Assembly: GCA_030710605.1 (NCBI GenBank)
Contig: CP092863.1
Location: 57,316,507-57,380,506, forward strand
DNA from: Cordylochernes scorpioides
Taxonomy: Eukaryota > Arthropoda > Arachnida > Pseudoscorpiones > Chernetidae
Direction of reading: 5' to 3'
DNA: 64,000 bases
Shown: piece by piece, positions 2,311-63,062 of the stretch
Numbering within the stretch: position 1 is the first letter of the stretch
How the letters are laid out: every line of letters begins with the position of its first letter
Made by a program: the position numbers and the translations under genes
The notes under the pieces: model-generated
Database searches by the model: none
What the model was told of the DNA's origin: nothing
What the model saw: the letters and a program-made list of their open reading frames with translations, nothing else

Positions 2311-3189
2311 TGTTTCCAGTTCCAAAATAACTTTATTAGGTGCCGTTCAAAAGAGCAATCTAGCTTATGATATTTACGATGTATAATATGTACACGTTCT
2401 TCACATTGAATACATTGTGAAAGTACAAACCAAAATGGTATGTGAATAAGGAACCAGTTCTTATCAATAATGGATGAAATAAATTTAATAGAGTTACCTT
2501 TAAACAATGCATTTTTAATCCATTTTTTAATCTGCGTGTAAAGCACAGACAAGATCAAATAATAGATGGATTGTTTTAATACGTTAAAATTATTATACAT
2601 TAATTTTCTGAAATAGAGACGGATAACCTTTTAAACATATATAATTCTATATTCTGAGTTCATAATAATAATAAAAATCACAGAATATTTCGAGATATAT
2701 CAATTAAAATTTAAAGAAGTGACTTTCATCAAGAAATTGTTGAAGTTGGGCAGAAGATTTAGTGCTCAGCGGGGTGATCAAAAGTTGATTTAACGGAAAG
2801 CTAAGAACAAAAACAATTAACGGAGGTAAGGATTATGTTAGTTCCTCAAAAACAATCAAGCGATAAATAACTTCCAGCTTCAACAAAAATCATTGGTTGA
2901 TAAAATTGAAGCCCTTTTTTCTATAAGAAAAAACAAAACAGACTATTGTGTTAACTGCAAAATTATTTTTCTATTGTTCCTTATAGCAAAATACAAAATT
3001 CTGCTTTTAGAATTCAGAATATCTACTATTTATTTTAGATATACTGCATCATTCAACCTGATGTATATATTTATGATTTAACAAATACGTACATATATAT
3101 ACATATTAAAACATGAAAAAACTATTTTCAAAAAGTCATATAAATTGTTTCGGTTATTCTAAAAATGAACTGTCAGGATATATCAATAT

Positions 3190-3535
3190 ATATATGTCAT
3201 AATATATGCTCTTCCAGGAATGATAAAGTAAATCTACAGTCGACCAGAGAGAGAGAGAGACGTAGAGAGAGAACGCAGCTAAAAGTACGGTCATTTTGGG
3301 ACACCAACGACCACATTCCAGGGGGCGACCGCAGGGCTTTTCTTGGAACCCTCAGAACTATTTTTGGACAGTTGGGGGGTGGCGTGCGACACAAACGGTC
3401 GTTCCGCAGTGACAGCCCTCGCGCTACCTCTCTCTCGCTGGTTACCTGGGTTATTCCTCTACCAACTCGTCGTGTGATTATTTCTCTTTCCCCACCACAT
3501 TATTATCACTATATTGCCATATATATATTTTAATA
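3190..3535 (-). repeat. Dispersed repeat 'GA', copy 1
   Basis: This roughly 330-bp unit is the reverse complement of sequence at 33115-33440 and at 62815-63062. It has relatively GC-rich inner parts, two purine/pyrimidine tracts (GAGA near 3246-3272, CTCT near 3430-3440) and AT-rich ends. The ends are imperfect inverted repeats of the form atatatgt(g)a(c)aatata. The shared tail is catatattatgacatat next to tcctggaagagc. The size and ends suggest a non-autonomous DNA element, though no target duplication could be fixed. Open frames across it are low-complexity and differ between copies, so they are not genes. Confidence 0.6.
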
Positions 3536-3544
3536 TCACCACCT

Positions 3545-3825
3545 GAGATGTTCAGCGCATCAATGCAAATTTGGCCTGAAATACCCATTTTTTTATTTCT
3601 CAGGGAAAAAACTTTGAATCAAATATTCGGTCGTTGAGGTATAGCCTGCATCATGCTGACGAGGGTCAACATCCCAAAACGTGTGGGTGGTTTTATCTTT
3701 TTTTTTAATTTATCAAGTAAACGAATTGGTCGAAATTTATGGAATAAACCAAAATAGATATTCAGCCGCTACGGCCATCTAATAATGCTTCATGTTATCG
3801 GTCAGGATATGCCTATTTTATTTTT
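3545..3825 (+). repeat. Hammerhead-bearing ~350-bp repeat, old copy
   Basis: This is a diverged copy of the family seen intact at 59575-59860. It shows the same order of blocks: cgcatcaatgcaaatttggcc, the hammerhead region (3651-3690), a liver-like ttatcaag block, then ggtcaggatatgcc at the right end. The ribozyme core keeps CTGACGA (3656-3662), stem II GGG/CCC around a CAACA loop, and part of stem III. The GAA after stem II reads AAA and stem I is lost, so it should be inactive. Confidence 0.65.
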
Positions 3826-5850: not shown

Positions 5851-6125
5851 TTTGAATAATTGGCGAAACGGCGAGAAGGAGAGTTCCCGATAGATGAGCC
5901 AGGCCCTCTCACTATTTTATCATCGCTGCAAGTACAGCAGTAGGTAGTTTTATTTGAAAAGAAAAATAAGAAATATTAATAATTTTATCTCGGATATAAG
6001 ATTTTGTATTTTTCTTTTCAAATGAAGCTAAATTCTGCTGTACTTGCAGCGATGAAAAAAAAAGTGAGAGGGCTTGGCTCATCAATAGGGAACCCTTCTT
6101 CTCACCGTTTTGCCAATTACTCAAA
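5851..6125. mobile_element. Palindromic MITE, 275 bp
   Basis: Two arms of about 118 bp form a long imperfect inverted repeat (5851-5969 and 6007-6125) with a spacer of about 38 bp. The outer ends read TTTGAATAATTGGC and GCCAATTACTCAAA, and inside them gatgagccaggccctctcac pairs with gtgagagggcttggctcatc. It has no coding capacity. Parts of the arm recur as single copies near 20615-20700, 22663-22745, 27840-27900, 32470-32550 and 56462-56490. This is therefore a dispersed family and this is its best palindromic copy. Confidence 0.75.
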
Positions 6126-12285: not shown

Positions 12286-12345
12286 TTTTGTTTAATATTA
12301 AAGAAGTAATAAGTTATTGTAAATTTACATAAGAAAAATTTTTTC

Positions 12346-15300
12346 ATGATGGCTCATTACCATTTTAGAGAATTTGAAGAAAAAAATGAAAATTTTTGCT
12401 CATTTATCGAGCGTTTGGAGCAGTTTCTAATTCTAGAAGAAGCAAGTGAAGAAAAGAAAAAAGCCTATTTGTTGACGCTAATTGGCGGAAAGGCGTATGA
12501 AACATTGAAAAATTTATGTAGCCCAAAGTTGCCTAAAGAGTATAAATATGAAGAATTGATTGAGAAACTGGTTGAATATTTTTCCCCAAAGCGATCTATA
12601 ATCGTAGAGAGATTCATGTTTTTTGGAAGAATACAAAAGGAAACTGAAAGTGTTTCAGAATATCTGGTGGAAATCAAGCGGCTAGCCTCAACGTGTGGAT
12701 TTGGCGAATTTTTAAAGGAATCCTTAAGAGACAAATTGGTGTGCGGATTGAGAAATGCAAAAATCCAGAGGAGGATCTTGTCTGAAGGAGATGTGCCGTT
12801 GGCAAGAGTAGTTGAAATTGCGTTGTCGATGGAGGCAGCAGAAAAAAATACCAGAATATTCCATGTCAATGAGCCTGCAGATAGCGTGGGCAAAATACGC
12901 GCAGAAGTCGGGAATAGATATAATAGAGAGCAAAAGAGAAAGTGCATACATTGCGGGAGGTTGCATAAAGACTTATGCAGATTTAGAGAGGCGACCTGTT
13001 TCAGATGCGGGAAAAGAGGTCACTTGGCAACCATCTGCAGGAGCCGTGGGGAACATACAAGCGAAAGACAGGTGAGCCGGTTTCTGAACCAGAGAAAGAT
13101 TAATCGAATCGAGGATCAGGAGGAGGAAGAATCCGTTCAAAGAATGGTCTTCATGAGGACGCATGATTATAGAGTCAAGTATGCTACGAATGACCCTCCC
13201 TATGTGATTAAGATGAGAGTAGAGGACACTTTGATGACTTTTGAAATCGATACGGGTAGCTGTCTGACTTTAATATCGGAGAAGGATTTCAAGAGATACC
13301 TCCCAGACGTGCAGGTAAAAGAAGCGGGAATAATTGTTAAGACCTATGACGGAACTGTGGTACCGATTCTGGGTGAAATAGATGTCAAGGTCGATTTTCG
13401 GGGAACGATCGCTAAGCTTAGAGCTGTCGTGATGAGAGGAGAAAGGAAGGCCTTGTTGGGGAGAGAATGGATCAATGTTTTGAAAATTGGAAATTATTTT
13501 GTGAATCAGAGAGAGATGCCTTTGGAGGACACGTTGGCGGAATTATTGAGTGAACACCAGGTTGTGTTTGGGGAGACAACAGATCCGATAAAGGGATTCA
13601 CGTTTGCAGTGAATATTCAGGATGTAAACCCCATATTTCATAAGGCCCGACCAGTTCCCTTTGCAATTAGAACGGCGGTAAACGAGGTTATAGAAAGAAT
13701 GGTGGAGAAGGACTACTTGTATCAAGTACCCAGCAGCAAGTGGGCAACTCCAGTGGTGGTTGTGCCCAAGAAGAATAAAGAGTTTAGGATTTGCTGTGAT
13801 TTCAAAGTGACTTTAAATAGGTTTTTGGATACTGCGGCCTATCCGCTGCCTACTCAGCAGGACCTGTTTTCCGTATTGGCTAGAGGGAAGTATTTTTCTA
13901 AACTAGATCTGAGCAATGCATACCTTCAATTAGAGGTAAACCCTAGCACCCAGCCACTCCTGACTATTAATACGCATAAGGGGCTTTTTAGGTTTAAAAT
14001 AATGCCTTTTGGATTGGCAAATGCCCCTAGTTTTTTTCAGTCAGTTATGGATAGAATATTGGCGGGAATTAATGGGGTTATTTGTTACATTGACGATGTA
14101 CTCGTATCCACGGCGTCAGTGGAGGAACATATGGCAGTATTAAAAACTATTTTTGTTCGGTTGCAGAAGCACAACATAAAATTAAAAAGGGAAAAATGTG
14201 AATTTCTGCGAAGAGAAATACAGTATTTGGGACATCTCATCAAAGAAGATGGTATTCGGCCTTTAGAGGACAAGATACAAGGGCTACAGAAAGCCAAAAG
14301 CCCGACAAATGTCTCGGAATTGAGATCTTTTCTGGGATTAGTGAACTATTATGGAAAGTTTATTCCGAATTTGCTAGAGCTGCTGGAGCCACTTCACAAG
14401 CTGCTGAAAAAGAATAGTTATTGGAAGTGGACAGGGGAGTGTGAGGAGGCGATCTCGGAGTGTAAAAGGAGAATTACCTCCGAGAGAAAGTGTTGGTGCC
14501 ATATGATGCCACGTTACCTTTATCTTTGGCCACGGACGCATCTCAAATTGGAGTGGGGGCGGTGCTGTCCCATGTTATCGAGGGCCAAGAGAAACCAATC
14601 ATGTTTGCCTCACGAACACTTTCCGGGGCCGAACGTAATTATTCACAAATAGAAAGAGAAGCTCTAGCAATAATATATGGTGTGACTAAGTTCCACCAGT
14701 TTATCTATGGAAGACAATTTACCCTGATTACAGATCATAAACCCCTGGTGTCTATTTTGGGGCCGAGAGCAGGGATTCCCACTTTGTCTACTTCAAGATT
14801 GCAGAGATGGGGACTGACTTTGGCGGCTTATACATATGAAATTAAATTCCGAAGAACTCAAGATCATGGAAACGCAGACCTTCTCTCACGGTTGCCAGTA
14901 GAGAGTGACGAAACACCGGTTTTGAATCAAACGTTCATATTATCATACGTGGAAGATTTGCCGGTTACAGCAGCAGAAATAGGTGTGGAAACTAAAAAAG
15001 ATGAAGTATTGTCAGTGGTGAAGCGCTATACGCAGCAAGGCTGGCCTGAAAGAGTTGGGGAATACCTCAGACCCTACTTTCAGAGAAAGTTGGAGTTAAC
15101 TATGGACGGGGAATGCTTATTGTGTGTGGGGAATGCGAGTGATCATCCCGTCTTCTCTTAGGAAAAATATGTTGAGTTGTCTACACGAGACCCATTCGGG
15201 GATGGGCAAAATGAAGGCGGTTGCTAGGTCGCATTTTTGGTGGCCGAATCTGGACAACCAGATTGAATGCATGGTAAATGGGTGTAAAAATTGCCAGCAA

Positions 15301-16272
15301 ACTCAGACAGGCCCAAGTAAAGTAAACTGGGGACCGTGGGTGTGAGCAACCAGGCCCTGGCAACGGATCCATATGGATTTTGCATTTAAAGATGGAGTGA
15401 ATTTGTTAATTGTGGTGGATAGCCACTCAAAATGGGTCGAGGCGATCCCGATGAGAGAGATAACCGCAAGAAAGACGATTGAGCAGTTAAGAAGATTGTT
15501 TTCAGCGTATGGGTTACCAGAGGAAGTGGTGTCGGATAATGGCCCACAGTTTACAGGGGTAGAGATGAAGAGTTTTTTCGAGAGAAATGGAGTCAGAAAA
15601 ACTCTGATTCCAGCATACCATCCACAGAGTAATGGTTTAGCGGAAAGAGCGGTTCAATTGATAAAGATGGCCTTGGAAAAAAATAAAAGGAAGTTTGAAG
15701 ATACCATTCAAGATACACTGTCAAGAATTCTCCTCACGTATCGATGCACGCCGCATGAGACAACTGGGAAGACCCCATCAGAGCTGTTTATGGGTCGGTC
15801 TCTGCGGACCAGACTGACATTGATACACCAGAGCCTGGACGATAAGGTGTGGTGTAAGAATTTTAGAGGTGTCGGATGGATTCCAGGAAGAATAGTGGGC
15901 AGAAAGGGGAGCAGAGTCTATACAGTTTTGATAAATGGACAGGTGAAGACCTACCACCGAGATCAGATAAGGAGAAGATGGACTAGTGGTGAAGAGGGAG
16001 ATGAGGCCAGAGAGAAAAGAGAGGAGGAAGATGACCCAATATGGATGGCTCCTGAGAGTATGAACAGCCGGAGGGACAGAGAATCGTTTTCGTCGGAAAC
16101 AGCTGGATTGCCGCAGGATCCAGTGTCCGGGGACCAAGGTGTGGAGATTGGAAGCAGCCCAAGGGAATCCGCGTGTTCCTCAGACAAAGAAGCCCGGACG
16201 GAGGAGAGACAACTGCCAAGAAGAAACCCTCCAAGGGATCGGAGACCTCCTGTGCGATATCAAGGCTTGTAG
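12346..16272 (+). pseudogene. Ty3/gypsy gag-pol polyprotein, three lesions
   Basis: The frame opens at ATG 12346 (a second ATG follows at once). Order: a capsid-like Gag; zinc knuckle CFRCGKRGHLATIC (about residues 217-230); aspartic protease with DTG at 13249 (about residue 302); reverse transcriptase with YIDD at 14086 (about residue 581); RNase H with TDAS and TDHKP; integrase HHCC finger (15180-15310); integrase core with D at 15376, D at 15535 and E at 15643 (DX35E). A short acidic/basic tail follows. Domain order PR-RT-RH-IN is that of Ty3/gypsy. Gag and Pol share one frame, with no env or chromodomain. Lesions: an apparent 2-nt gain near 14483 within a GA run, an apparent 4-nt gain near 15128 within a GT run, and an in-frame TGA at 15343 where a tryptophan codon is usual. 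All catalytic motifs survive, so the damage is recent. Confidence 0.93.
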
Positions 16273-17840: not shown

Positions 17841-20190
17841 ATTCATAATACACATTTTGAAAATGTATTTCTGTGAATCTCTATTGTATGTGTGTTGCCC
17901 GCCTTCGCGGAGCCAGTGGTCTGATGAAGCGCGACCGCGCGAACGCTTGCCTCCCGGTATCTAAATGAAAAAAACTCTACAAATATTTTTTAATTTATTT
18001 AAATCAATTATAATATTATATGCATCAATATTCCAAGTACAAAAACAATCATCGTCTATAACTAACACTAAAACATTTGGCATATTGTACGAGGAGAAAT
18101 AAATATTGTGGTAATTATAGGGTACGACCTGATGAATACAATTATTGAGTGAAGGAAGCAAATGAAAATTCATCTCCAGATCGAGAGTAACTACACTCCC
18201 ATTAGAATTCCCATTACACAGATGCGCGATATCTGTTCAAATATTTTATTAGAAAAAGCGATATATTAAAATAATAAATATTCACGACACGAAACTTGAA
18301 CAATTCTTGTTTGTTTTATTACAAAAATAAATAATACAAAAATTAATATTATTTTATTTCACTTTTTACAATAATATAACATAAGAACGTTTTCAATTAT
18401 TGAAAAATAAAAGCAACAAAAGGAGGCTATAGTAATTTCTTATTTGCCACAATGAAACAAATAAATATTTGATGGAAATATTTGAGCTGTTTCCACATTC
18501 CAAATAAAGCGATTCCCTTTCATTAAACTCTATATAAAAATTTATATCAACAAATATTTATCCTTGATGAAAATTTTTAGAATATTTTGAACAATATGTT
18601 TATTCAATAAATTATATAGACTCTTTATAAAACATATATCCCCCTTATTTATAAATAATATATTTCAGTCTACCTATTTAATCATAATGTTATCCTTCAA
18701 TTTTAAAATATAGGTAGTAATATATACAATATTAATACAACATATTTTACATATTATATAGAAATATCCTAGTAATATATATAAAATACTAGAACATTAG
18801 AGTTAGTTGCACAACTAACTGAGAAATTTGAGAATGCCTGTAATATTACAATGACAAACGCGTTCCAAATAAGCCTCCATTATTCCATATATTTAAGAAA
18901 TAATAATAATTTTCAAAGGCTACCAAGATGATACCCGAGCTTATAGGATATTTATTCACATTCACACATATGTTCAAGCGAATGTGAAAAAAAAAAAGAA
19001 GAAAAAAAGCGGAATTGTCGCCAAATGACGCTTATAGGAAGTCAAAGGGAATAAAAGACCTATATCAAATAATGATAATGATGTATGTAATATATTGAAT
19101 ATTAACTATTATATCTTCTTCAATAACAAATATTTCCTATATTTTATACTTTTGTTATTAATTAAAATGCGCAACTATAATAGCAAATATACCTAATAAA
19201 ATGTATAATTTTATGAAATATGTTGAAGACTGTTCACCCACAAATATTTGTACTTGGGTCTACACAGACAGGTATTAAGGTCAATCAAAATAAGCTGAAC
19301 GCCAGTAAATATATCGAAGAAAATATTGGGAAAGATGGAATTCTATTTAGCTGTTTTTTGATGAAAAACGCTCGGGGAGAGAGATGGGAAATGTGAACAT
19401 CTAGAAAAAATGAAAGTGGAACTGGATAAAAATGGTAAAATGGGGGCTGAGATCAATCTTCAGATAAATCTCTTTGATTTGAGGTATAAACATAAAAACG
19501 GAATCCGTTTTGTTTCAGAAGATATTTCATCCTCTAGTGTGTACGTTTCTATTTTTATCAAACCCAAAAACCTATCAGCAATTTATAATCCTATTATTAT
19601 GTATTCATACAAAATATAAATATTAGATATTTTAACGATATTGAACATACAAAATTTTACACAAACGCATATGTATATTGATTGATATTTTATTGGAAAA
19701 TATAGACCTGAATAATTATTTTAATGCATGAATCTTTACTTTTATAAGCATTGTAACAATGCATTTCTATCACGATATGTGTCTCTTTTCATACATGAAT
19801 ACCACCACTCTCGATCTTGCATTGATTTCTGGCCTAATAATCGACCGTACCACTATACGAGATTAAATATATTTTTGGAAAATTTGATTGATTTTACCAA
19901 TAAATGCTTCAGTAAGATGTTAGGAATTTGAAGCTACCCGGTACTGAAGAGGGCCGTACCTCCCACATGTTATGCAGGTTGGACTATTTCTTAATTTACC
20001 AAAGAAATGCGTTGTGTCGCATTCCTTTTTTTTATTGTAAACTGCGTTTTCTCTATAGAATGAATAAAGTGAATGAATTGCCTTGTTACATTTTGGTGAG
20101 AAACCTGCTTTATTTTGAATAACCATTTCTTTCGCAATATTGCATTATGAATCCCACACACAATATACGGTAGGTATTAAAATAAAAAAG
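17841..20190. other. AT-rich spacer with one GC-rich island
   Basis: Nothing gene-like is seen. A GC-rich island at 17895-17960 contains CTGATGA (17921) followed by a GCGCG/CGCGC hairpin and GAAC. This resembles a hammerhead core but lacks the A after GAA and a matching stem I. Frames of about 70 codons at 17961-18173, 19410-19619 and 19728-20126 show no motif. Confidence 0.4.
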
Positions 20191-20194
20191 ACAT

Positions 20195-20390
20195 CTTCTG
20201 ACCGGGCTCACATGAGCGTGTCAGAGCGCAATCTAGTTAAACAAAAATCAACAAAGGATTGATTTAACGTGTTCCCTGATATTTAACAACCCATTTTCTT
20301 GATGAATCCAGAAACGCCAATCACGAACGCCTTTCGGGCTGTTGGCCCTCGTCAGCGTGTTGTTAGGCGTGTTTGTAGGATGGTTGAAAC
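20195..20390 (-). repeat. Hammerhead-bearing ~350-bp repeat, copy at 20.3 kb
   Basis: This is the reverse orientation of the family. From right to left it has the hammerhead (20322-20359), the ttgggttg/aacaaccc block, the gtttatttaacttgctcc-like block (here altered) and the terminal gagccc/ggtcag block near 20200. It merges at 20373 with a different repeat that is duplicated at 22424. Confidence 0.7.
20322..20359 (-). ncRNA. Hammerhead ribozyme, compensated variant
   Basis: On the minus strand the order is stem I CACG, core CTGACGA, stem II GGGC, loop CAACA, GCCC, then GAA, stem III AGGCGT, U at the cleavage position, and stem I CGTG. Relative to the 59.7-kb copy, both strands of stem II have changed (GCGC/GCGC to GGGC/GCCC) while pairing is kept. 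Stem III carries one mismatch, so activity may be reduced. The pairing is read by eye. Confidence 0.6.
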
Positions 20391-29141: not shown

Positions 29142-30033
29142 AACTTGGTAAAGAAAACATTCAAAGACAAAGAGGATGAGTATCTTTTTATGAACAAGCG
29201 TTCGAGCTTTCGAGCACAATGTCGCCCTTCAACAGGAATAAAACTACACAAAGAATCAAGATACATCTATATATATACAGGTGATTAGCATAAACACAAA
29301 AAACTATTATTTTTAGAGAGATAAAATTTAAGTTTTATGTATGATATACAAAACAGGTAATAGGAGAAATGTAATTATGCTAATATATGGTTTAATCTAT
29401 TAGTAAAGAATCTATAGGTTGTTGTATGAACAGCTTATGTAAATATGTCATTGTAAAGTTCCGGAATCTCAATGTGCCTATTGATGCTATTATATTTTAG
29501 GGATAGCAGCGCCTCGACAACCAATCTTTTATATTTATGCTGAATGTTAGAAAAATGCGAACGGGGTTCTATTGTATTAAAAGTATGTCCTGTATTTGAA
29601 ATGTGTTGGGCTATGAGGGATCTAGGGTCATTATTTCTGATATTTCGGATATGTTCATCGATTCTATCTTTTATGTGTCTGCCAGTTTCACCTATGTATA
29701 AGCTAGAGCAATTATTACATTTTAATGAGTATACTGCATTATTAGTCATACAACAACCTATAGATTCTTTACTAATAGATTAAACCATATATTAGCATAA
29801 TTACATTTCTCCTATTACCTGTTTTGTATATCATACATAAAACTTAAATCTTATCTCTCTAAAAAATAATAGTTTTTTGTGTTTATGCTAATCACCTGTA
29901 TATATATAGATGTATCTTGATTCTTTGTGTAGTTTTATTCCTGTTGAAGGGCGACATTGTGCTCGAAAGCTCGAACGCTTGTTCATAAAAAGATACTCAT
30001 CCTCTTTGTCTTTGAATGTTTTCTTTACTAAGT
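29142..30033 (-). mobile_element. Penelope-like element fragment with 288-bp inverted arms
   Basis: The left arm 29142-29429 and right arm 29746-30033 are near-perfect inverted copies (288 bp each), separated by a 316-bp spacer encoding a GIY-YIG nuclease. Each arm holds a cgttcgagctttcgagc / gctcgaaagctcgaacg block typical of Penelope-like terminal repeats. In these elements the upstream terminal repeat is often inverted, which fits. The reverse transcriptase is absent, so this is a severely deleted copy. Near identity of the arms implies recent origin or conversion. No target duplication was found. Confidence 0.8.
29435..29749 (-). pseudogene. GIY-YIG endonuclease domain of a Penelope-like element
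   Basis: The open frame is about 104 codons. It begins with VYSLKCNNCSSLYIGETGRH, which matches the GIY-YIG pattern (Y...C..C...YIGETGR) of Penelope-like endonucleases, including the CxxC pair. It continues through R...H...I and ISNTGHTF to the C-terminal block KRLVVEALLSLKYNSINRHI. The same C-terminal block occurs on the plus strand at 40806-40901, confirming a family. In full elements this domain follows a reverse transcriptase and nicks the target DNA. Only the endonuclease survives; it has no internal stop but is probably not expressed alone. Confidence 0.85.
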
Positions 30034-33114: not shown

Positions 33115-33440
33115 ATTCTGTTATATATATATGTGACAATATAGTGGTAATAATGTGGTGAGGAGAGAAATAATCACACGACGAGTTGGAAGGGGAATCT
33201 GGAAGCCATCCGAGAGAGAGAGGGAGCGAGAGGGCTGTCCGCTGAACGACTGCCTGTGTGGCCACCACCCCCCGACTATCTCCCAAAATAGTCCTCACGT
33301 GTTGACGGGCGGGCCCCTTTTGCCGCCCCTTTGGAATGTCGTGATGTCTAAAGTGACTCGCTTTAGCTGCCCATCTCTCTCTCGTTGACTGTAGGTTTGT
33401 TTTATTAATCCTGGAAGAGCATATATTATGACATATGTAT
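33115..33440 (+). repeat. Dispersed repeat 'GA', copy 2
   Basis: Opposite orientation to the 3190 copy and the same as 62815. Blocks in order: atatatgtgacaatata end, GAGA tract (33210-33235), ctgaacgactg, a GC-rich centre, ctctctctcgttg, tcctggaagagc, catatattatgacatat end. Confidence 0.65.
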
Positions 33441-33489
33441 ATATGTATAAAGGAATATTTAATAAATACTAGATCTAAATTTATATTTC

Positions 33490-33712
33490 TAGGGGCAAAA
33501 CACCTATTTTTACAAGGTTTTTCTTTGATTCAAACTAAATCACCTGGGCATGTGATCCATCTCGCTATTTGAGACCAAAGTAAGAAATTTTGATGAAATC
33601 TTCACTATATATCAAATACAACAAGAGTGAATCAAATGCCCACGTGATTTAGTTTGAATCAAATGAAAACTTTGATGAAGAGTGGCCCTTTCCCCTAGAA
33701 ATATTGGTTAAA
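33490..33712. mobile_element. Palindromic MITE, about 220 bp
   Basis: The ends read TTCTAGGGGCAAAAC and TTTCCCCTAGAA (inverted). Inside them, ttgattcaaactaaatcacctgggcat pairs with atgcccacgtgatttagtttgaatcaa. A partial copy lies at 43966-44065 inside the 3-kb mariner-type element. No coding capacity. Confidence 0.75.
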
Positions 33713-40759: not shown

Positions 40760-41160
40760 CACACAAGATTCATGAAATCTTCAGAAAATTGTAAAGATGT
40801 AATTTAAAAGATTGGTCGTCGAGGCGTTGCTCTCTTTGAAATACAATAGTATCAACCGACATATAGAGATTCCTGATGTATATAAAGCAATATTTCCATA
40901 AATTGTGTACCATAGTTGCCCTATGCCAGTTTGATTTACTTTGAAAAGTCTCAACTTAGCAGATTTATTCAATGTATCATAGTCTGGGTCGCGTGGATGT
41001 GAGATTTATTCACGCGTTACAAATTAATAGAGATACCATTTTTGTTTACAAACGTTACTTTTTGAAAATGTTTTTCTATAATTTCCTGTAGAAGGGCTGT
41101 TTTCGCCCGAAAGCTTGAATCTTCAATAAAATTTAAAATAAAAATATCCTCGTACGCTTC
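40760..41160 (+). pseudogene. Penelope-like element 3' end with terminal ribozyme-like motif
   Basis: 40806-40901 encodes FKRLVVEALLSLKYNSINRH and then IEIPDVYKAIFP with a stop, nearly identical to the C terminus of the GIY-YIG frame at 29435-29749. Downstream (41081-41120) is a hammerhead-like motif: CTGTAGA, stem GGGC/GCCC, GAA, AGCT, then T and GAAT. AATAAAATT and a terminal region resembling the 29-kb arms follow. Upstream sequence is too decayed to read. The core has a T where hammerheads need A in CTGANGA. Confidence 0.75.
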
Positions 41161-43530: not shown

Positions 43531-44099
43531 TACAGGGTGATCCAAAAGTCTTTAACAACTTTAAAAATTAATAACTCCGCGAATATTTGCGCTATAGCAA
43601 TGCGGTAAACACCATTGTGTTCAGGATGCAATGGGATTTTTATGGAAAATATAGAAAATTTCGAAATTGATTTTAGTTACAATTTTATTCGCTAGATGGC
43701 GCTCTACCAGAATCAGAGATTCAGCGGCCAATCTGATGGACACGTATTTTTCCTTTTGAATACCAGAAAAGAACCCTAATAATATCAAATGATAAATTAA
43801 TAAAACACCATTTCGCCAAAGGTAGAAGAATTGGATGACGGTTTTTAAATACAATCTAAGATATGCAAAATAGGTATATGCAAATTAAAACATGTAGAAA
43901 AAAATATATTTTAGATGCGGTTTGCTGGAATCCTTTCAGCGATTTAAATTTAGAAGATAACACGCCTCTCTTTATCAAGGCTTTTCTTTGATTTAAACTA
44001 AATCACGCGGGCATGTGATCCACTCACGCTATACAAGACCAGAGCAAGATATCATTTAAAGAAAATATATATATTTGTACATACATGTTTATTTGAAAT

Positions 44100-44185
44100 T
44101 GTATCCTTTATTCCTGTAGAAGGGCAGCTTGCGCCCGAAAGCTCGAATTAATTTTACAAATAAAGAAACTTATCCTTATCGAATC
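44100..44185 (+). repeat. Penelope-like tail with hammerhead-like motif
   Basis: At 44110-44148: stem I ATTC, CTGTAGA, stem II GGGC/GCCC, GAA, stem III AGCT, C, stem I GAAT (fully paired). The only core fault is T for A in CTGANGA. AAATAAAG follows. No Penelope-like protein is attached. Inserted in the 3-kb mariner-type element. Confidence 0.6.
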
Positions 44186-47702: not shown

Positions 47703-49690
47703 CACATTGAGCCCGTAGGACGTGGATCCACGTCCAAGCAATATAAGCCTAAAGCCCGCAGGCCGTGGATCCACGTCCTGAAACTTCAAAATTCAATATA
47801 AAATCGTGGCATAATTCACGTCCTTCGGGCTTCTGCCATCAAATAGCTGCATCATTTGTCTACGTCAGTGCTCAAGGTCACACGCGGGGGAGGGTAAAAG
47901 GGGCCCCGTTGGGGGATTTTCCATGACATCACTTCTGCTCACGTTTCCTCCTCCTGCCGCTAGCTTCCTGGACGGTTGTTATTTTATTTATTGCCATTTT
48001 TTTTTGCGTTCGCTTCTAAAATGGATCTTGATCAACCCAGTACCTCGGGAATAGCTCCAATTACAGAACCTGAGGAGTTTGGTGATGAATATTTTCAAGA
48101 TTCTGGTTCAGAATTGGATGATTCTGTTATTGATCCAGATTTTGTTTTGGATGAATATGATTCAGATGCAACTGAAATTTATTTTGAAGATGTTGCTCCT
48201 GCCAAAAAAATCACTTTGGGGATGGAGAATGGACCGAGGTCAGTGATCCTTTTCATAAACTTTATTTTTCTTCTCTTCACGGTCCAAATAGTGCCTATTT
48301 TCCCGACACTTCTCCCTATTCAGTATTCAAGTTATTTTTTGATGAAGAGTTTTTCAGAAACGTAAAACTTCGGTTGGAGAACTAAATCTTTTTCTTGCCA
48401 TTATAATACATATGAGCCTTGTTGTGAAGCCAAGGATAAGAGATTATTGGTCAACTCACATAGGCATCAAATCATCTTTCTGCAAGTCAACAGGCATGAA
48501 AAGGGAAAGGTTTGAAGCCATTCTTTCTATGCTGCATCTCAATGACAATGCAACTTATATTGCCTATGGACAACCTGAATATGACCCTCTTCACAAACTA
48601 CGGACATTTTTCGACCCTCTCGTTCATAAATTCAAAAAGATTTACCAACCAGATGTGAATCTTACCATTGATGAGGCTATATGCCCATTTCGTGGGAGAA
48701 TCCATTTCAGAGGGTACATCAAAGGAAAGCCTCACAAATATGGAATAAAAATGTACCAATTGTGTGAGGCCAGCACTGGATACACATGCATTATTGATGT
48801 GTATACAGGAAAACACCCTGATAAAGCTGCAGAGTACAACTCAATAATGAGTTTGGTCGGAAGATTGGCTGAATCAAATTTTGAAAAGGGGCATATCATT
48901 TACTTTGACCGTTGGTTTTCTTCTCCACAACTGTTTGAACACTTATGGAGCAAAAAACTATTGCTGTTGGTACAGTAATGCAAAATAGAAAGGCTTGCCA
49001 AAAAAGGCTTTTTCTAAAAAACTCAGAAAAGGTGAAGCCATCATCCGACAAAAAGGACCCCTTCTTGCAATGAAATGGCGGGACACCAGAGAGGTATTTA
49101 TGCTCTCTACAAATCAAGAGGCAGAAATGATTCAGGCACCTAAAAGATCTAAAAGAACTCCAGAACCAGAGCTAACAATGAAACCAGCAGTGGTTGTTGA
49201 TTACAACAAAAATAAAGCTGGTGTTGATCGAAGTGATCAATACATGTCCTATTACCCTTTATATCGTAGGACAACGAAGTGGTGGGAAAAGGTATTTTTC
49301 CACCTTTTCAACCTTGGTATCGTAAATTCAAAAATTATTTACAATAAATTGAACCAGGACAAGAAACTGAACCTAAGAGAATTCAATTTGAGAATTTTAG
49401 AAAAATTAGTTGAAGAGGCAGGTGTTGAAATGTTGGATGAGCAGCAAGGTGCTTCTGGTTCCCCAGATAGGCTTTTGGGGAAACATTTCTTAACCAGAAT
49501 CAAAGTGGAAGGGAAAGAAGGCACATATATTCAGAGAAAATGTAAAGTCTGTTCCGAAAAAGGAAAAAGAAAAACAGGAAATAGAGCAAGGAAGGATAGT
49601 GCATATATGTGTGAGACCTGTTTGGTCCCACTTTGTCTAGTTGACTGCTTCAAGATTTACCACACCAAAGAAATATTTTGGGCTTAATCT
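47703..49690 (+). mobile_element. piggyBac element, right end not found
   Basis: The left end probably starts at 47703 after CTAA (a one-base variant of the TTAA target): cacattgagcccgtaggacg. Two nested copies of gg(a/c)cgtggatccacgtcc lie at 47718 and 47762. The palindrome GTGGATCCAC in both is a likely transposase-binding site. The matching right terminal repeat is not visible after the stop codon and may have been lost to the hairpin insertion at 49805. Confidence 0.75.
48021..49687 (+). pseudogene. piggyBac transposase, two frameshifts
   Basis: ATG 48021 starts MDLDQPSTSGIAPITEPEEF, an acidic N-terminal region usual for the family. A frame change near 48220 leads to DPFHKLYFSSLHGPNS; the next frame covers 48412-48978 with RDYWSTHIGIKSSFCKSTGM and TIDEAICPFRGR (first catalytic D at 48670). 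It ends YFDRWFSSPQLFEHL (second D, 48907; the family usually has DNFYTS or similar). After a second frame change near 48965 the third frame has YNKNKAGVDRSDQY (third D, 49226). The C terminus is a cysteine-rich finger, CKVCSEKGK...CETCLVPLC (about 49540-49650). All three catalytic aspartates survive, so decay is mild. Confidence 0.92.
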
Positions 49691-50730: not shown

Positions 50731-51009
50731 CATCTCTTACACAACAATTACATATCAATAACCGTTCCTTTTCCAACCCTTAGATATATTTATTTCAGGA
50801 ATATTGATATTGGGATTACACATATATAGAGAGTGGCGTATGCCGCTGTTTAATTTCTACTCTTTGCACTATAAAAATATTAGACTTTCAATCTATTCTT
50901 TAAAATTTCTCTAGAAGAGCATATAACTAGATGTTGAGTCGAAAATTATAAATTGTTTTGAAAATAGAGAAATCCATAAATAAATCTTCAATTAAAATGG
51001 CATATATAT

Positions 51010-51180
51010 AAAAAACTAAACCCTGACCAGGCTCACATGAGCATTTCTAGATGGCACAGCGCCATATAGTGGAGCAAAAATAAACTAAACGTTTATTTAA
51101 CTTGCTCCGTGATATTTGGCCAACCCAATTTATTGATAAATCAAGAAAAGTCAATCACTTTTACAATTGACCTATCCGGG
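51010..51180 (-). repeat. Hammerhead-bearing repeat, truncated (ribozyme missing)
   Basis: Has the terminal block (gaccaggctcacatgagc), ggcacagcgccat, aaataaactaaacgtttattt and ttgctccgtgatatttggcc, then ttgataaatcaagaaaagtcaatcac, where it stops just short of the hammerhead. Confidence 0.75.
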
Positions 51181-55569: not shown

Positions 55570-56540
55570 ATAATTATTATACCTAAGAAAATCTATAGTG
55601 TATAGGGAAATATATATATAAATATACAGGAACCACTTCATAAGAATACAAATATTGACTTGTGTCCGTTTTACTAACCTGAAACCTAGTAATCAAGGGT
55701 GATATGGTCTAATGAAATGCGTTTGAAGTCAAATGTGTTAATTATTGTTAGGAGCGCGTTATTTATAAAGCTAAATGGGGAGAAATTCCTATTTTTGATA
55801 AATCCTCATGAAATTCCTTTGTTCTGAAGGATAATGATTACTTAAGTCAAACCTTGTATTATAGGTTTGACTTATAAATTAAAATATATTTTTTGTGCAT
55901 ATATAGAAGCGTAGTTTTATGAATAAATAAATGTTAAAAACATAAGAGCCAATATAAGTTTTAAGATCGCTTTGTTCTCTTCGAGCACCTGTTCATCTAC
56001 CAGGCCCATGACGGGGTTTACTAATTAATTACCTAACTAACACTAATGTCACAAAGCTGTCAACTCTGGTGCATATTAAATATATCTCTCCTTTGTCACC
56101 ATTAAATATATTTTGAATAAATTTTAATTACCTTTTTCGATGGAAATATCACCACACACAAGTTACTATTCGAAAATTGAAATAATGTATTTTTGAAACT
56201 TTTTGACTTAATATAATTTTAATATTTTCCCTCCATTTGTACCTTTGTCAGTTCCAATAGGTTTCAAGGTTTCCATGTTTTACAATGGTTCTCTTTTATA
56301 ATGATATTGTATTCAAACTGTTAGATTCATAATATTTTTGACGGCTTCAATATAGTGAGAATATTTGTTTTTAAAATTGATTAGAATCTCGGAAAAGTCA
56401 GAGTTCGGCAGTTTCTCTAAGGCATAGCTGCGAATGTATGGCGAAACACTGCAAATATCCAACACTGATGAGCCAGGCCCTTCAATTATTTAATAAATAA
56501 ATATATTTATTAAAAAACGAAATAAAAAAATAAAAGATAA
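55570..56540. other. AT-rich spacer; small MITE fragment at 56462
   Basis: 56462-56490 (aacactgatgagccaggccc) is the end of the palindromic MITE family. Otherwise nothing recognised. Confidence 0.45.
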
Positions 56541-56543
56541 AAA

Positions 56544-56985
56544 ATGTTTAGTTGATTTCTGTTCCACCAGATGGCGCTCTGCCTTCTGTAAAGCACATGT
56601 GCTCCTGGTCAGGATATGCCATTTTTTATATTGATTTCAACACCTGATCTTTTTATCTTTTATTTTTTTATTTCTTTTTTTAATGTGCTAAGCGTATTTA
56701 CGCAAGTTTGGCCTTAAATACACATTTCTTGGTTTTTCGGGAAGCCATTGGGATCAAAAATTATTTTTTGGTCGCAATGGTTCAGCCTACTCCACGCTGA
56801 CGAGCGCCAAAAAGCGCGAAACGCGATCGTGGATGGCTTTTCTTGATTTATCAAGAAATTGGGTTGGCCAAATATCAGGGAACAGGCTAAATCAATGTTT
56901 AGTTGATTTCTGTTCCACCAGATGGCGCTCTGCCTTCTGTAAAGCACATGTGCTCCTGGTCAGGATATGCCATTTTTTATAAATA
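56544..56985 (+). mobile_element. Hammerhead element, ~1.25 tandem units (351-bp period)
   Basis: The block atgtttagttgatttctg through ggtcaggatatgccatttt occurs at 56544 and again at 56895, so about 90 bp is directly repeated around one full unit. The unit contains tgctaagcgtatttacgc, aagccattgggatc, ttcagcctactccacg, the hammerhead (56792-56832) and gatttatcaagaaattggg. Such LTR-like direct repeats come from integration of a multimer or of a circle-derived copy, as in retrozymes. No protein is encoded; the minus-strand frame of 77 codons is fortuitous. Confidence 0.8.
56792..56832 (+). ncRNA. Hammerhead ribozyme, one core-pair defect
   Basis: CCACG, CTGACGA (56797-56803), GCGC, loop CAAAAA, GCGC, GAA, ACGCGA, T, CGTGG. 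Stems I and II pair fully. The base that should pair with the A after GAA is A rather than U (56826), which probably weakens cleavage. Confidence 0.65.
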
Positions 56986-56989
56986 TATT

Positions 56990-58258
56990 TATGTGACAAT
57001 ATATAAAATTTAGCTTATGTACTACCTAGTCCTAACCTTCAAAACATTCCATCTCAACCACCTTTTCTTTCGTGAATAATATAAATGTGTCCCTACCTCG
57101 TAAATAACATAACCATTTCAATATGTATTAAATGAATATACGAAAAAGTTAAAATAAAATCCAGCGCTCTGACAAAGACTGGAAGTAGGTCGGTTAAATA
57201 ACCTGGTTGACAATCATGAAGGTTGCAAGCTAAAATTATGTCTCTTTCCCATCCAAACGTGTCAGCTATTTCGCTGTGACGTATCGCCATCTGATTAGTC
57301 CCACAAATCAGGTGAATCTCAGGTCCAGACAGATGTTACAAGAGCAGCACGGTCATCAGTCAGGTTTTGACAGCAGACAGGGGCAGTTCGAGCTTGACAC
57401 CACGGTCAGGGAGATTTGACAGATTAGCGGCGGCATGAGCAGCGCACACAGTCCAGTCTCGGAGTACACGCTGGTGAATCTTCTACCTTCTTCAATACTT
57501 TGCGCCAACTTACCGTCAAAAATTGAGCACACTCAAATCTCTCTGGTTTAAGAACCAGCTTATTTTCTTCGTTTTTGTTTGGGAGCTTCTTGTTTGCGAA
57601 ATCCATCGTGTGTCTTGTCTTCTTTAACAAAAGATAAGCTGCTTGGCCATCGACTGCAAAACCCGAGTGGTAAATCCCGATTCACTGTCTAGTGTGGAAG
57701 AATATATTTTTCCCGTATTAGAAGGCCTTCGAGTTCTCACGACATCTATATATATTTTATAATTTATATAAATTATACTTTTAAAATCAAATCTAAAAGA
57801 TGTTAATCAAATTGAGGGCATTTCATGTTTACAACATAATCATTATTTTCTTGCTTAGTCGTTTTTGTTCTATATAAATAATCAGCTAGAGAGATATTTA
57901 CTTCAATCTATTTGGCAAAATAATGCCCGTTGTACACAGATCTAATATAACATTGAACCAAGTTTCATTTTGAAAATAAATTTCATATCACTATATTTTG
58001 TTCATCTCACATCTAACTTAAGACGGACGTGTCGATATTCTCTCTATATAGAGATTACTTAGGAGCTGTTCCATATAGTAGCAAAGTCAAATATAATAAT
58101 CGACATAAACGTATTTCTAGAAAGTATAAAATCTATATAGTTAGGTCTCGGACAAGGAATAGAGATAATCAAGTTTAAATCTATGAAATCCTTTAAAAAT
58201 ATTGTGTAATAAAAAGTAGTGAGTGGATGTAGACGCTCGCGCGTTTGTAGATATAGAA
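56990..58258. other. Spacer with an unassigned minus-strand frame
   Basis: 57040-57660 is of mixed composition. On the minus strand an ATG at about 57606 opens about 60 codons (MDFANKKLPNKNEENKLVLK...), rich in K/E, ending near 57424. A second frame (57093-57290) begins MAIRHSEIADTFGWERDIIL. I recognise neither; they could be exon or retroelement relics. The rest is AT-rich. Confidence 0.35.
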
Positions 58259-59152: not shown

Positions 59153-59560
59153 TATATGAAAAACAATAGAAAAAAATAAAAGATAAGTGGGTCAGGTGTT
59201 GATATTAAAAATAAAGAAGGCATCTCCTGACCACGAGCACATGTGCTTTTTAGATTGAAGAGTGCCATCTAGTGAAGCAAAAATAAACTAAACGTTTATT
59301 TAGCTTGCTCCGTGATATTTGGCCAACCCAATTTCTTGATAAATCAAGAAAATCCATCCACGAACGCGTTTCGTGCTGTTGGCGCTCGTTAGCGTGGAGT
59401 AGGCTGTAACCACTGCGACCAAAACATATTTTGGTCCCAATGGCTTCTTGAAAAAGCGCTCTGCCATCAAAAAAGTGCATGTGCTCTTGGTCAGGAGATG
59501 CCTTCTTTATTTTTATTATCAACACCTGACCCACTTATCTTTTATTTTTTTCTATTGTTT
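59153..59560 (-). mobile_element. Hammerhead repeat, inverted copy with palindromic junction
   Basis: A minus-oriented unit runs from about 59455 down to about 59190. Its far end (59153-59250: aataaaagataagtgggtca, then ggtgttgatattaaaaataa) is repeated inverted at 59465-59570. The locus is therefore a head-to-head arrangement of this copy with the plus-oriented one that follows. Confidence 0.75.
59358..59397 (-). ncRNA. Hammerhead ribozyme, core mutated
   Basis: On the minus strand: CCACG, CTAACGA, GCGC, CAACA, GCAC, GAA, ACGCGT, U, CGTGG. The G of CTGANGA is A, and stem II has one mismatch, so it is predicted inactive. Stems I and III are intact. Confidence 0.65.
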
Positions 59561-59860
59561 TTCATGTGCTAAGCGTCTTTACGCAAATTTAGCCTTAAAT
59601 ACTCATTTATTGATTTCTCAAGAAGCCATTGGGACCAAAATGTTTTTGGTCGCAGTGGTTACAGCCTACTCCACGCTGACGAGCGCCAACAGCGCGAAAC
59701 GCGTTCGTGGATGGCTTTTCTTGATTTATCAAGAAATTGGGTTGGCCAAATATCACGGAGCAAGCTAAATAAACGTTTAGTTTATTTTTCTCCACTAGAT
59801 GGCGCTCTGCCATCTAAAAAGCACATGTGCTCGTGGTTGTGAGATGCCTTCTTTATTTTT
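59456..59860 (+). mobile_element. Hammerhead element, ~1.15 tandem units (346-bp period)
   Basis: gcgctctgccatc starts at 59456 and 59802 (346 bp apart), each followed by the terminal block ending gagatgccttctttattttta. Between them is a full unit: tgctaagcgtctttacgc, aagccattgggacc, cagcctactccacg, hammerhead 59671-59710, gatttatcaagaaattggg, gtttagtttattttt, ccactagatggcg. This is the best-preserved unit of the family. No protein is encoded. Confidence 0.8.
59671..59710 (+). ncRNA. Hammerhead ribozyme, minimal type I, complete core
   Basis: Stem I CCACG (59671-59675); core CTGACGA (59676-59682); stem II GCGC, loop CAACA, GCGC (59683-59695); GAA (59696-59698); stem III ACG/CGT (59699-59704); cleavage-site U (59705); stem I CGTGG (59706-59710). 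Every conserved core base of CUGANGA...GAA is present, all three stems pair, and the last stem III pair is the expected A-U. Stem III has no loop of its own, as in the very short stem III of schistosome and newt satellite hammerheads, which are thought to work better as dimers. Self-cleavage between 59705 and 59706 is predicted, not shown. Confidence 0.75.
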
Positions 59861-59864
59861 AATA

Positions 59865-60225
59865 TTTATATATATACTATATACTTGCTGAATTCATTAA
59901 TATATTCTAACATATTTTTTTCAAGATATTAATAAAATAATTAAAAAATAATAATAGAAATTAATTTATCTTCCTATATCACACACATATAAGAAAAATA
60001 CTCTGAAGGGTATTTCCAAATAGTGCACATTTTGGCCCCAATTCTCAAGATACTCGTATATCGCTCAACTCAATGGAATTGGTTTTATTTGGCCTTCATT
60101 GGTTCTCTCCTGCATCCCGGAACCTTCTGGTTGCGAAGACACAACATATTCGGATAAGTATAAAATACTCTTCAATACAAATATAAATAATAAACAAAAA
60201 GGCTTCCGAGCATGAGTTTCATTTT
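59865..60225. other. Spacer with a weak promoter-like patch
   Basis: 60075-60145 has two inverted CCAAT boxes (attggtttt, attggttct) and cccggaacc (ETS-like). Otherwise AT-rich. Confidence 0.3.
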
Positions 60226-60234
60226 TATTATTTA

Positions 60235-60320
60235 TATTCTTCTCAAGATTTCGGGTATCACTAACCTTTCTACTAGAGTAGAAGTTGAAAGGTTAGTGAT
60301 ATCCGAAAGCTTGATAAGAA
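60235..60320. repeat. Near-perfect hairpin with a Penelope-like half motif
   Basis: atttcgggtatcactaacctttc pairs with gaaaggttagtgatatccgaaa around a 17-nt loop. The right side ends ccgaaagcttgataagaa, the 3' half of the Penelope-like ribozyme motif (GAA, AGCT, T). Confidence 0.6.
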
Positions 60321-60324
60321 TATA

Positions 60325-62070
60325 TATATATGAAAAACAAAAAATTCATTCACGGAAGCCGTTTTGTTTATTATCTATTTTAAGAACATATATTTTATGG
60401 CCGTTTCGCAAACACAGAGTGTCCCAGCGGCGGACATCAAGGTACCCTTCTGCTGCTGATTGGCGGACAGACGCAAGCACGAACTCGCCGACTAAGAAGT
60501 CCTAAATTAACTTTTTTTTAAAAGCAATAGAAGTGACATTGAGAAATATCAAACAAAGTTTGTTTACCATATTTTAATCTCAATTCTGAAAATATTTGAA
60601 GACAACTAAGTCCAAATTCAATTTACACAATTTCTTATTTTCAACACAAAATTAAGTAGTCAAATATTTCACTGGTGATAAAGTACTAGTCTTGTATAAA
60701 TATGTTATGAATGAAAAGGAGAAATACATTTTCAAAAATTATATACAAAAAAGTATAATAGGTGTGAATTTAGATATTCATGAAATACGATTATATACAA
60801 ATAGAATAAGGGTAATAAAATTGGAAAATGATTTATATCGCCTTATAAAAATCCATTAAAGAATATAATATCGTAGTAAAATAGGTACCGTCTGTAAACC
60901 AATTTCCATTAAAGACTCGGTTGTATTCAGGTTTCATTCCATTGTTATTAAAGAAGGAACAAAATCGTTTTATTCCCCTTCTTTAATTGAATTCTTTTGG
61001 CAAAGGAAAAACTATCCCACACTGTTGAATTTAAAATTAACAGTTCCTTGTCCCAAAAGAGACTTTCAAACTAAACCCTTCCAAACAAATAGTGTTGGAT
61101 TACGCACAAACAATCAAATAGAATGGATCTTTAAATTAAGCACACTTCAAAGAAATCAAAGCTAAGCCATTTCAAAGAATTGATTTGTAGAAAAAAATCT
61201 TATTAAAAGAGAATTAGAGTCATTTTTAAAATAAATTTATTATCTGGGAAACAATTAGATACTTGGTATAATTATAGAGGGGTTCTTCTTTGCTAACAAC
61301 TCAACAATCCTTTAGAGATTTAATTGTAAAGAATAATTAAGTAGAGTTTATCTTCTTTGATAGATAGAATATTTTGATAGTGGTCTACATAATGTAAAAT
61401 AAAACAATTTTATAAATTATTCTGAGATTGGTTTTGATTAAAAAAAGGTGAAAGCAAAAATTACTAAATCATACTTTTGATTTATAACACAATTTTATAC
61501 AAAATGGGCGCTATATGTAATTCAACTGAGTGTAAAGAATTTTTCCAAATGGAAGCTCTAACTAAGCGAGGTGAAATTAGCGGAAATTTATCGTAGGGGG
61601 GGCGAGATAGAATCGGCGTGGAAAGAAGCACCAGAAGTCCTAAAACAGAAAGTTCCAAATTTACTGCTGCTTCCCTTTATGTTTATGGCGTCTCCCAGGG
61701 CGGCTTATCTATGCGGGGCCACATGTAAACTCGATTCACATACAAATAGAACTTTGGAATATGACCAATATGCAATTCCATTTTTAATATAATACTTTTT
61801 TTTCTTTAAGAAAATATCCATGTTACTTCAATTTTTAAATTATTTTTTATGCATAGGTGATTATCATTTCGTATTTTATTAATGGGAATGACAGCTTGGG
61901 GGGCTAATGTTCACATTTCATTCATACTCTAATCATCAAAAATATATTCAACCATATTCTGTAGATATTTTATCACATATTTCAGCCAACAATAAAAAGT
62001 TTGTTTTGCATTAAAAATAAAGTATTAATTAATATGATCTCCTTTATATAGCATAATTTTGCCGTTTATT
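60325..62070. other. Spacer, one possible exon start
   Basis: ATG 60397 opens MAVSQTQSVPAADIK and meets a splice-donor-like AAGGTACCC at 60439-60447; the frame stops soon after otherwise. Mixed-composition DNA at 61560-61745 is unassigned. The rest is AT-rich. Confidence 0.3.
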
Positions 62071-62814: not shown

Positions 62815-63062
62815 GGCAGCCAGCCGAGAGAGAGCGAGCGAGACGTTATCAGCTGAACGACTGTTTTCCCTGTGTACACAACCGGGGGGCTAACCAGGAT
62901 AGTCGCCAGGTGGTGACGGCCCCCCCCCCCTCAGGAATGTGGCCGAAAATGGTCGTAAGTTTGTTGTCTAAAGTGTCTCGCTTTAGCTGCTCATCTCTCT
63001 CTCGTTGGCTGTTGGTTTGTTTTATTAATCCTGGAAGAGCATATATTATGACATATGGCCCC
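62815..63062 (+). repeat. Dispersed repeat 'GA', copy 3
   Basis: Same order as 33160-33440: gagagagagcgagcgag, ctgaacgactg, a C-run (62922-62931), gtctcgctttagctgctcat, ctctctctcgttgg, tcctggaagagc, catatattatgacatat. The left end is missing. Confidence 0.65.

Follow-up and report, generated by a model that had tools for sequence, protein, structure and literature searches.

Which machinery moves a repeat that carries a hammerhead ribozyme and encodes no protein? The question is raised by a locus in the pseudoscorpion Cordylochernes scorpioides, where a stretch of 64,000 nucleotides (hereafter the window) contains a hammerhead motif within a dispersed unit of about 350 nt. Metazoan non-LTR retrozymes are described as ORF-less units of 150–450 bp that carry a type I hammerhead and occur in tandem, and either LINEs or Penelope-like elements (PLEs) have been named as the machinery that moves them, the PLEs as a strong candidate (Cervera and de la Pena 2020, PMC7229834). 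According to reviews, minimal type I hammerheads also occur in the pseudo-LTRs (pLTRs) of PLEs (PMC7761336, PMC6155905). The presence of hammerheads in both kinds of element is therefore known already, and mobilisation of retrozymes by PLEs is a stated hypothesis (PMC7229834); what the present locus adds is the insertion anatomy of an ORF-less hammerhead family, which bears on which machinery moves retrozymes.

The hammerhead motif

The motif in the copy of the repeat designated A (Table 1) reads AGCC-UAC-UCCACG-CUGACGA-GCGC-CAACA-GCGC-GAA-ACGCGU-U-CGUGGA-U-GGCU. In the hammerhead numbering, the core strands are CUGACGA (59676–59682) and GAA (59696–59698), the closing pair is formed by A15.1 (59699) and U16.1 (59704), and H17 is U59705. 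Stem I has 6 bp (59670–59675/59706–59711) and stem II has 4 bp (59683–59686/59692–59695), and an outer 4-bp helix (59663–59666/59713–59716) is separated from stem I by an internal loop. The layout is that of a type I hammerhead with predicted cleavage after U59705. The original prediction for this locus had described a complete conserved core within 59671..59710 and cleavage after 59705; every core element is indeed located there and the cleavage position agrees, and the outer helix falls outside that span. The hammerhead is thus real as a sequence motif, whereas the three paired stems, a match to Rfam and the rank of best copy, taken up in turn below, were not confirmed.

A hammerhead descriptor, drawn up after the site had been seen and allowing a 2-nt helix III loop, matches the copy A site only when both strands of the 64-kb window are scanned; when run on 200 dinucleotide shuffles, it averaged 0.005 sites and never exceeded 1, a single site in the whole set. 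For the looser pattern CTGANGA...GAAA, the window holds 9 matches where 4.31 are expected, and because 3 of 100 shuffles reach 9, the core strands are not persuasive by themselves. The covariance-model search that accompanied the original prediction as a check returned no above-threshold hit in any copy, the outcome named there as one half of the evidence that would speak against the motif, and indeed no Rfam family matches anywhere in the window at gathering scores. Among the 14 matches at E ≤ 10, two are hammerheads, both to Hammerhead_HH9 (RF02275) and both in this repeat family: 32.0 bits at 56781–56847 in copy C (E = 0.00042) and 27.9 bits at 59660–59725 in copy A (E = 0.0083), against a gathering cut-off of 52 bits. 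HH9 is the sole hammerhead family among the covariance-model matches; it can be aligned with the motif over the core, over stem II and, in the internal loop of stem I, along the UAC side, whereas the inner helix of stem I and the helix III region are shorter here. An 18-base ribozyme pattern has 4 matches in IMG/VR, none of which has the GAAA strand in place, and these are read as chance. A 20-base unit pattern has 0 matches in IMG/VR and one in genome_contigs, a cyanobacterial record in which only 21 bases agree, also read as chance.

The helix III region of copy A consists of the self-complementary hexamer ACGCGU (59699–59704). Within one molecule this hexamer can form only an A-U and a C-G pair over a 2-nt loop, a hairpin that ViennaRNA refuses, and a monomeric helix III of the normal hairpin kind was rejected; of the three stems originally described, I and II stand. 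Because the hexamer is self-complementary, two ribozyme molecules could share a 6-bp helix III, an idea drawn from the palindrome and from reviews according to which helix III is usually absent from the hammerheads of PLEs, whose cleavage may require a dimeric form (PMC7761336, PMC6155905). A crossing double hammerhead is beyond ViennaRNA scoring, and the free dimer fold that the program returns is not the double hammerhead. The palindrome does give a prediction for the bench, namely weak cutting as a monomer and strong cutting as a dimer.

According to ViennaRNA, free folding does not select the hammerhead for copy A: the hammerhead fold without helix III is placed at −18.3 kcal/mol and the best fold at −19.7 kcal/mol, a gap of 1.4 kcal/mol, and the core strands are open in ∼2% of the predicted ensemble. 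Compared with shuffles, the short copy A stretch has a z of −2.08 (6 of 200 as good), for a fold that is not the open-core hammerhead. In the predicted fold of the forward transcript 59156–59880, all 42 bases of 59670–59711 pair with the inverted copy at 59357–59398. Copy A had been called the best copy of the family; with its ribozyme predicted to be buried in this manner, the locus may not cut well itself.

The repeat family

Table 1. Coordinates of the hammerhead repeat family and of the GIY-YIG fragment in the window.
Feature	Position	Strand	Basis
Copy A including partial direct repeat	59456–59865	+	blastn
Copy A, full unit of 346 nt without conserved ORF	59520..59865	+	Repeat spacing, circular fold
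Copy A, partial direct repeat (3' part of preceding unit)	59456..59519	+	88% identity to 59802–59865 (8/64 differ)
Copy A, tail region of 46 nt	59520..59565	+	Inverted copy B extends further than the direct copy does at its 3' end
Copy A, hammerhead	59663..59716	+	All core bases; Rfam HH9 27.9 bits, sub-threshold
Copy B, partial, inverted head to head, tailed	59156..59455	-	Inverted repeats, alignment
Copy C, insertion; ribozyme region 56784–56838	56511..56978	+	blastn, alignment, Rfam HH9 32.0 bits
Copy C, left target-site duplication, 14 bp, AT-rich, self-complementary	56497..56510	.	Exact 14-mer
Copy C, right target-site duplication, 14 bp	56979..56992	.	Exact 14-mer
Copy D, 3' part of unit only; homology starts just past the ribozyme	51006..51153	-	blastn
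Copy E, ∼75% identity to A; hammerhead region 20315–20371	20175..20371	-	blastn, alignment
Copy F, old copy; hammerhead region 3643–3693, decayed	3565..3720	+	blastn, alignment
GIY-YIG endonuclease fragment; ORF 29438–29779	29143..30033	-	Pfam PF01541, E 4.4e-6

The family occupies six places in the window by blastn (A to F), in line with the at least six copies that had been claimed. The ribozyme region is present in five of these (A, B, C, E, and F). All core bases are kept in A and E, the latter at 75% identity to A over 194 blastn columns, and the core is broken in the other three: in B, G5 is replaced by A and one stem II pair is lost; in C, A replaces U16.1; and in F, G12 and site 17 are changed. 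Another dispersed repeat (3186–3528, 33125–33442, and 62994–63056; 73–86% identity) is found directly upstream of copy F.

When the five ribozyme regions are aligned, the hammerhead structure leaves 88.3% of cells paired, compared with 23.8–39.7% when the structure is slid along the alignment. Two compensatory changes, UA to AU at one stem I pair and CG to GC at one stem II pair, are each present in E and F. Shuffled alignments reach the observed value in 4 of 500 cases for paired cells, 15 of 500 for cells changed on both sides, and 27 of 500 for the covariation score; the corresponding counts are 276 of 500 for pairs changed on both sides and 468 of 500 for further pair types. Since E and F may share a single event for each of the compensatory changes, support from covariation is modest. 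In a longer five-row alignment, a change on both sides is kept at 6 of the 66 pairs predicted, and 4 of these 6 lie downstream of the ribozyme; the RNAalifold consensus of this alignment shifts part of stem I to a different pairing register, and the covariation term is unfavourable (+3.95).

The spacing between units is 346 nt in A, as originally stated, and 351 nt in C, with G+C contents of 0.399 and 0.390, respectively. Folded as circles, the sense strands reach −92.6 kcal/mol (z −4.66) for A and −106.0 kcal/mol (z −5.95) for C, and the antisense strands have z values of −4.06 and −4.76 (60 shuffles each), indicating strong self-pairing of the unit whichever strand is folded. The copies have no conserved reading frame in common, which agrees with the claim that the element codes for no protein. 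An ATG located 5 nt after the cut site starts a frame whose length is 43 codons in copy A, 35 codons in copy B, and 49 codons in copy C; the same ATG is absent in D and E, and the frame was rejected as coding. In both A and C, one unit passes directly into the next with no ORF between them. The tandem extent is partial in both (∼1.2–1.25 units), there are 0 complete dimers in the window, and a long satellite array was rejected for the window, where the copies are dispersed and the longest run is ∼1.25 units. Where the element had been assigned to the plan of hammerhead satellites and retrozymes, the satellite part does not fit this window and the retrozyme-like plan holds at the level of sequence: an ORF-less unit of ∼350 nt, a type I hammerhead, a partial head-to-tail tandem, and 39–40% G+C.

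Anatomy of the insertions

Among the insertions in the window, an inverted piece with a tail is seen in two only, A/B and C, those whose ends could be placed. At A/B, the inverted copy comes first and meets the partial direct repeat head to head, and the full unit follows. At C, an inverted tail piece (56511–56543) precedes a direct repeat (56543–56630) and the remaining unit; this direct repeat is identical to 56894–56981 at 88 of 88 positions. The inverted pieces of both insertions stop at a common position of the unit, immediately before GTGCTAAGCG, to within ∼2 nt, an uncertainty that stems from the flanking AT bases. In A/B this end lies 46 nt past the end of the direct copy. Copy C is bounded by the 14-mer ATAAATATATTTAT, exact on both sides, a low-complexity sequence that was spotted by eye ahead of testing; 74 of 20,000 random AT-rich position pairs with equal slack reach 14 bp. 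The duplication at copy A is a 10-bp TA repeat, a length reached by 149 of 20,000 pairs; a clean target-site duplication (TSD) is seen in C only.

This anatomy resembles that described for Penelope elements, in which direct pLTRs are accompanied by an adjacent inverted pLTR, one inverted end of which may bear a 31-bp tail; some copies are reported with TSDs of 8–10 bp and others without any, and solo pLTRs are known (PMC3846280). The tail has been attributed to the start of reverse transcription at two adjacent internal sites that bound it, and the targets are AT-rich (PMC11167929). The Penelope-like signature of an inverted repeat with tail, direct repeats, and a short TSD is present in A/B and C, and inverted head-to-head copies, tail, TSD, and a GIY-YIG fragment elsewhere in the window, none of which figured in the original prediction, together point to insertion of the Penelope type.

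The direct repeats also bear on the template. Those of copy A differ at 8 of 64 positions versus 3 of 146 in its ribozyme arms (Fisher P = 0.004), a misfit with one clean circular template that might be due to a multimeric template of mixed units or to conversion at a later time. The identical ends of C, by comparison, fit a circular template copied beyond one lap. The 3' part of the unit is present three times in A/B (59202–59282, 59456–59519, and 59785–59865), and these copies are 10–12% apart, with the ribozyme arms at 2%.

The GIY-YIG fragment is a head-to-head fold-back (99%), which we take to be of the Penelope type from its domain and layout. It is unrelated in sequence to the ∼350-nt unit and represents another family. 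No reverse transcriptase was found adjoining it, a protein search with the fragment returned nothing at E 0.001 or better, its flanks carry a 4-bp duplication only, and neither the descriptor nor the CTGANGA...GAAA pattern located a hammerhead within it. A search for an ORF with reverse transcriptase plus GIY-YIG between hammerhead units likewise found none in the window. The fragment is at most evidence that such elements exist in this genome, not that they move the hammerhead family. Short pieces at 40801–40901 and 44107–44176 are 77% similar to it.

A candidate mechanism of mobilisation

We consider the family to be a non-autonomous retrozyme-like retroelement moved by Penelope-type machinery supplied in trans, a reading to which we assign a probability of roughly 0.6. 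In the proposed mechanism, the type I hammerhead of the unit RNA, which lacks a normal helix III, would be most active in cutting as an ACGCGU-paired dimer. Multimeric RNA would thereby be cleaved to unit length and circularised by a host ligase, a route already published for animal retrozymes elsewhere. Acting in trans, a reverse transcriptase of the Penelope type that includes a GIY-YIG endonuclease would then nick AT-rich DNA and copy the unit beyond one full length, and such copying would leave a partial direct repeat, an inverted head-to-head tailed piece, and a TSD. Products of this kind are visible at A/B and C; the agent, together with cleavage, dimer activity, and circularisation, is what we infer.

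The reading draws on the complete core at copy A (matched by 1 site in 200 shuffles), on the core of copy E, which is likewise complete although the copy has diverged by ∼25%, on the excess of paired cells over slid structures and the changes on both sides in stems I and II, on the ORF-free unit junctions in A and C, the common end of the inverted pieces, and the 14-bp duplication of copy C, and on the GIY-YIG ORF in the window and the same layout as described for Penelope elements (PMC3846280, PMC11167929). Several observations count against it: no match passes the Rfam threshold, the free fold is not the hammerhead, and the covariation is partly unsupportive; only two insertions are tailed, the duplication at A is a TA repeat, and that at C is of low complexity; the GIY-YIG fragment is unrelated, with its 4-bp duplication and no reverse transcriptase beside it; and in A the repeats are uneven and the ribozyme is predicted to be buried.

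Alternatively, the units could be solo or partial pLTRs of an autonomous PLE whose coding body lies elsewhere, with no separate ORF-less family, a reading that we regard as unlikely and that nonetheless deserves serious weight. Cervera and de la Pena reportedly described PLE pseudo-LTRs with minimal hammerheads in 2014. Such hammerheads in pLTRs (PMC7761336, PMC6155905) and the solo pLTRs described for Penelope (PMC3846280) fit this reading, and the insertion signature would be identical; the direct abutment of units in A and C with no ORF between them argues against it, as does the assignment of the sole GIY-YIG fragment found in the window to another family. Improbable, in our estimate, is that other non-LTR machinery of the LINE type moved a retrozyme-like element, or that template switching and repair produced a fold-back repeat, with the Penelope-like layout a coincidence: LINEs are the other candidate named for animal retrozymes (PMC7229834) and the window holds other long fold-backs (5851–6125, 33487–33700, and 60180–60381), but the tail end and the head-to-head layout are common to two insertions. 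That a repeat unconnected with self-cleavage should resemble a hammerhead merely by chance is scarcely credible, for although its Rfam scores are below the gathering threshold and three of the five ribozyme regions are broken, shuffles almost never yield a descriptor site, a second complete core is kept in copy E, and 88.3% of cells pair versus at most 39.7% when slid.

The family shares features with both known systems. With the metazoan retrozymes, as described in PMC7229834, it has in common a unit size in the 150–450-bp range, the lack of an ORF, a type I hammerhead, a tandem arrangement that is partial here, a G+C content under 50%, and a strongly self-paired RNA. It differs in having ∼1.25 units per insertion, as opposed to dimers to multimers, in lacking helix III, as amphibian and PLE hammerheads do, and in its tailed head-to-head inverted pieces; the main text of that report does not contain the word 'inverted'. 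Metazoan retrozymes are expressed as linear and circular RNA. With PLE pseudo-LTRs it shares direct and inverted terminal repeats, a tail at the inverted end, and an AT-rich target (PMC3846280, PMC11167929), as well as a minimal hammerhead without helix III (PMC7761336, PMC6155905). Unlike in PLEs, no ORF for reverse transcriptase or endonuclease is joined to the unit in the window and the units lie directly head to tail; stem I has an outer helix and an internal loop, and the TSD of copy C is 14 bp, compared with the 8–10 bp described (PMC3846280). Among the titles and abstract openings surveyed, none reported an ORF-less hammerhead element with inverted and tailed ends of the Penelope type.

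More tentatively, and at somewhat less than even odds, the family may physically link retrozymes and Penelope elements, with Penelope enzymes copying ribozyme RNAs in trans and, in C, probably more than once round the circle, given the identity between its two ends of 88 nt. The ends of an insertion preserve a trace of the enzymes that produced it. Should genomic copies generally show this tail end, inverted piece, and short duplication, the hypothesis of PLE mobilisation becomes testable by computation alone.

Other mobile elements in the window

The coding region of a Ty3-type LTR retrotransposon, broken into several frames, spans 12313–16272 on the forward strand; its reverse transcriptase and integrase core match Pfam, and a protease-like match is under the cut-off. 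At 47964–49687, also on the forward strand, a piggyBac-type transposase (PF13843) is split across two adjacent frames and ends in a zinc-finger match. The arms of the three further long fold-backs mentioned above are ∼75–80% complementary, and these fold-backs have sub-threshold matches to microRNA precursors in Rfam. A piece resembling the fold-back at 33487–33700 is located at 43962–44064.
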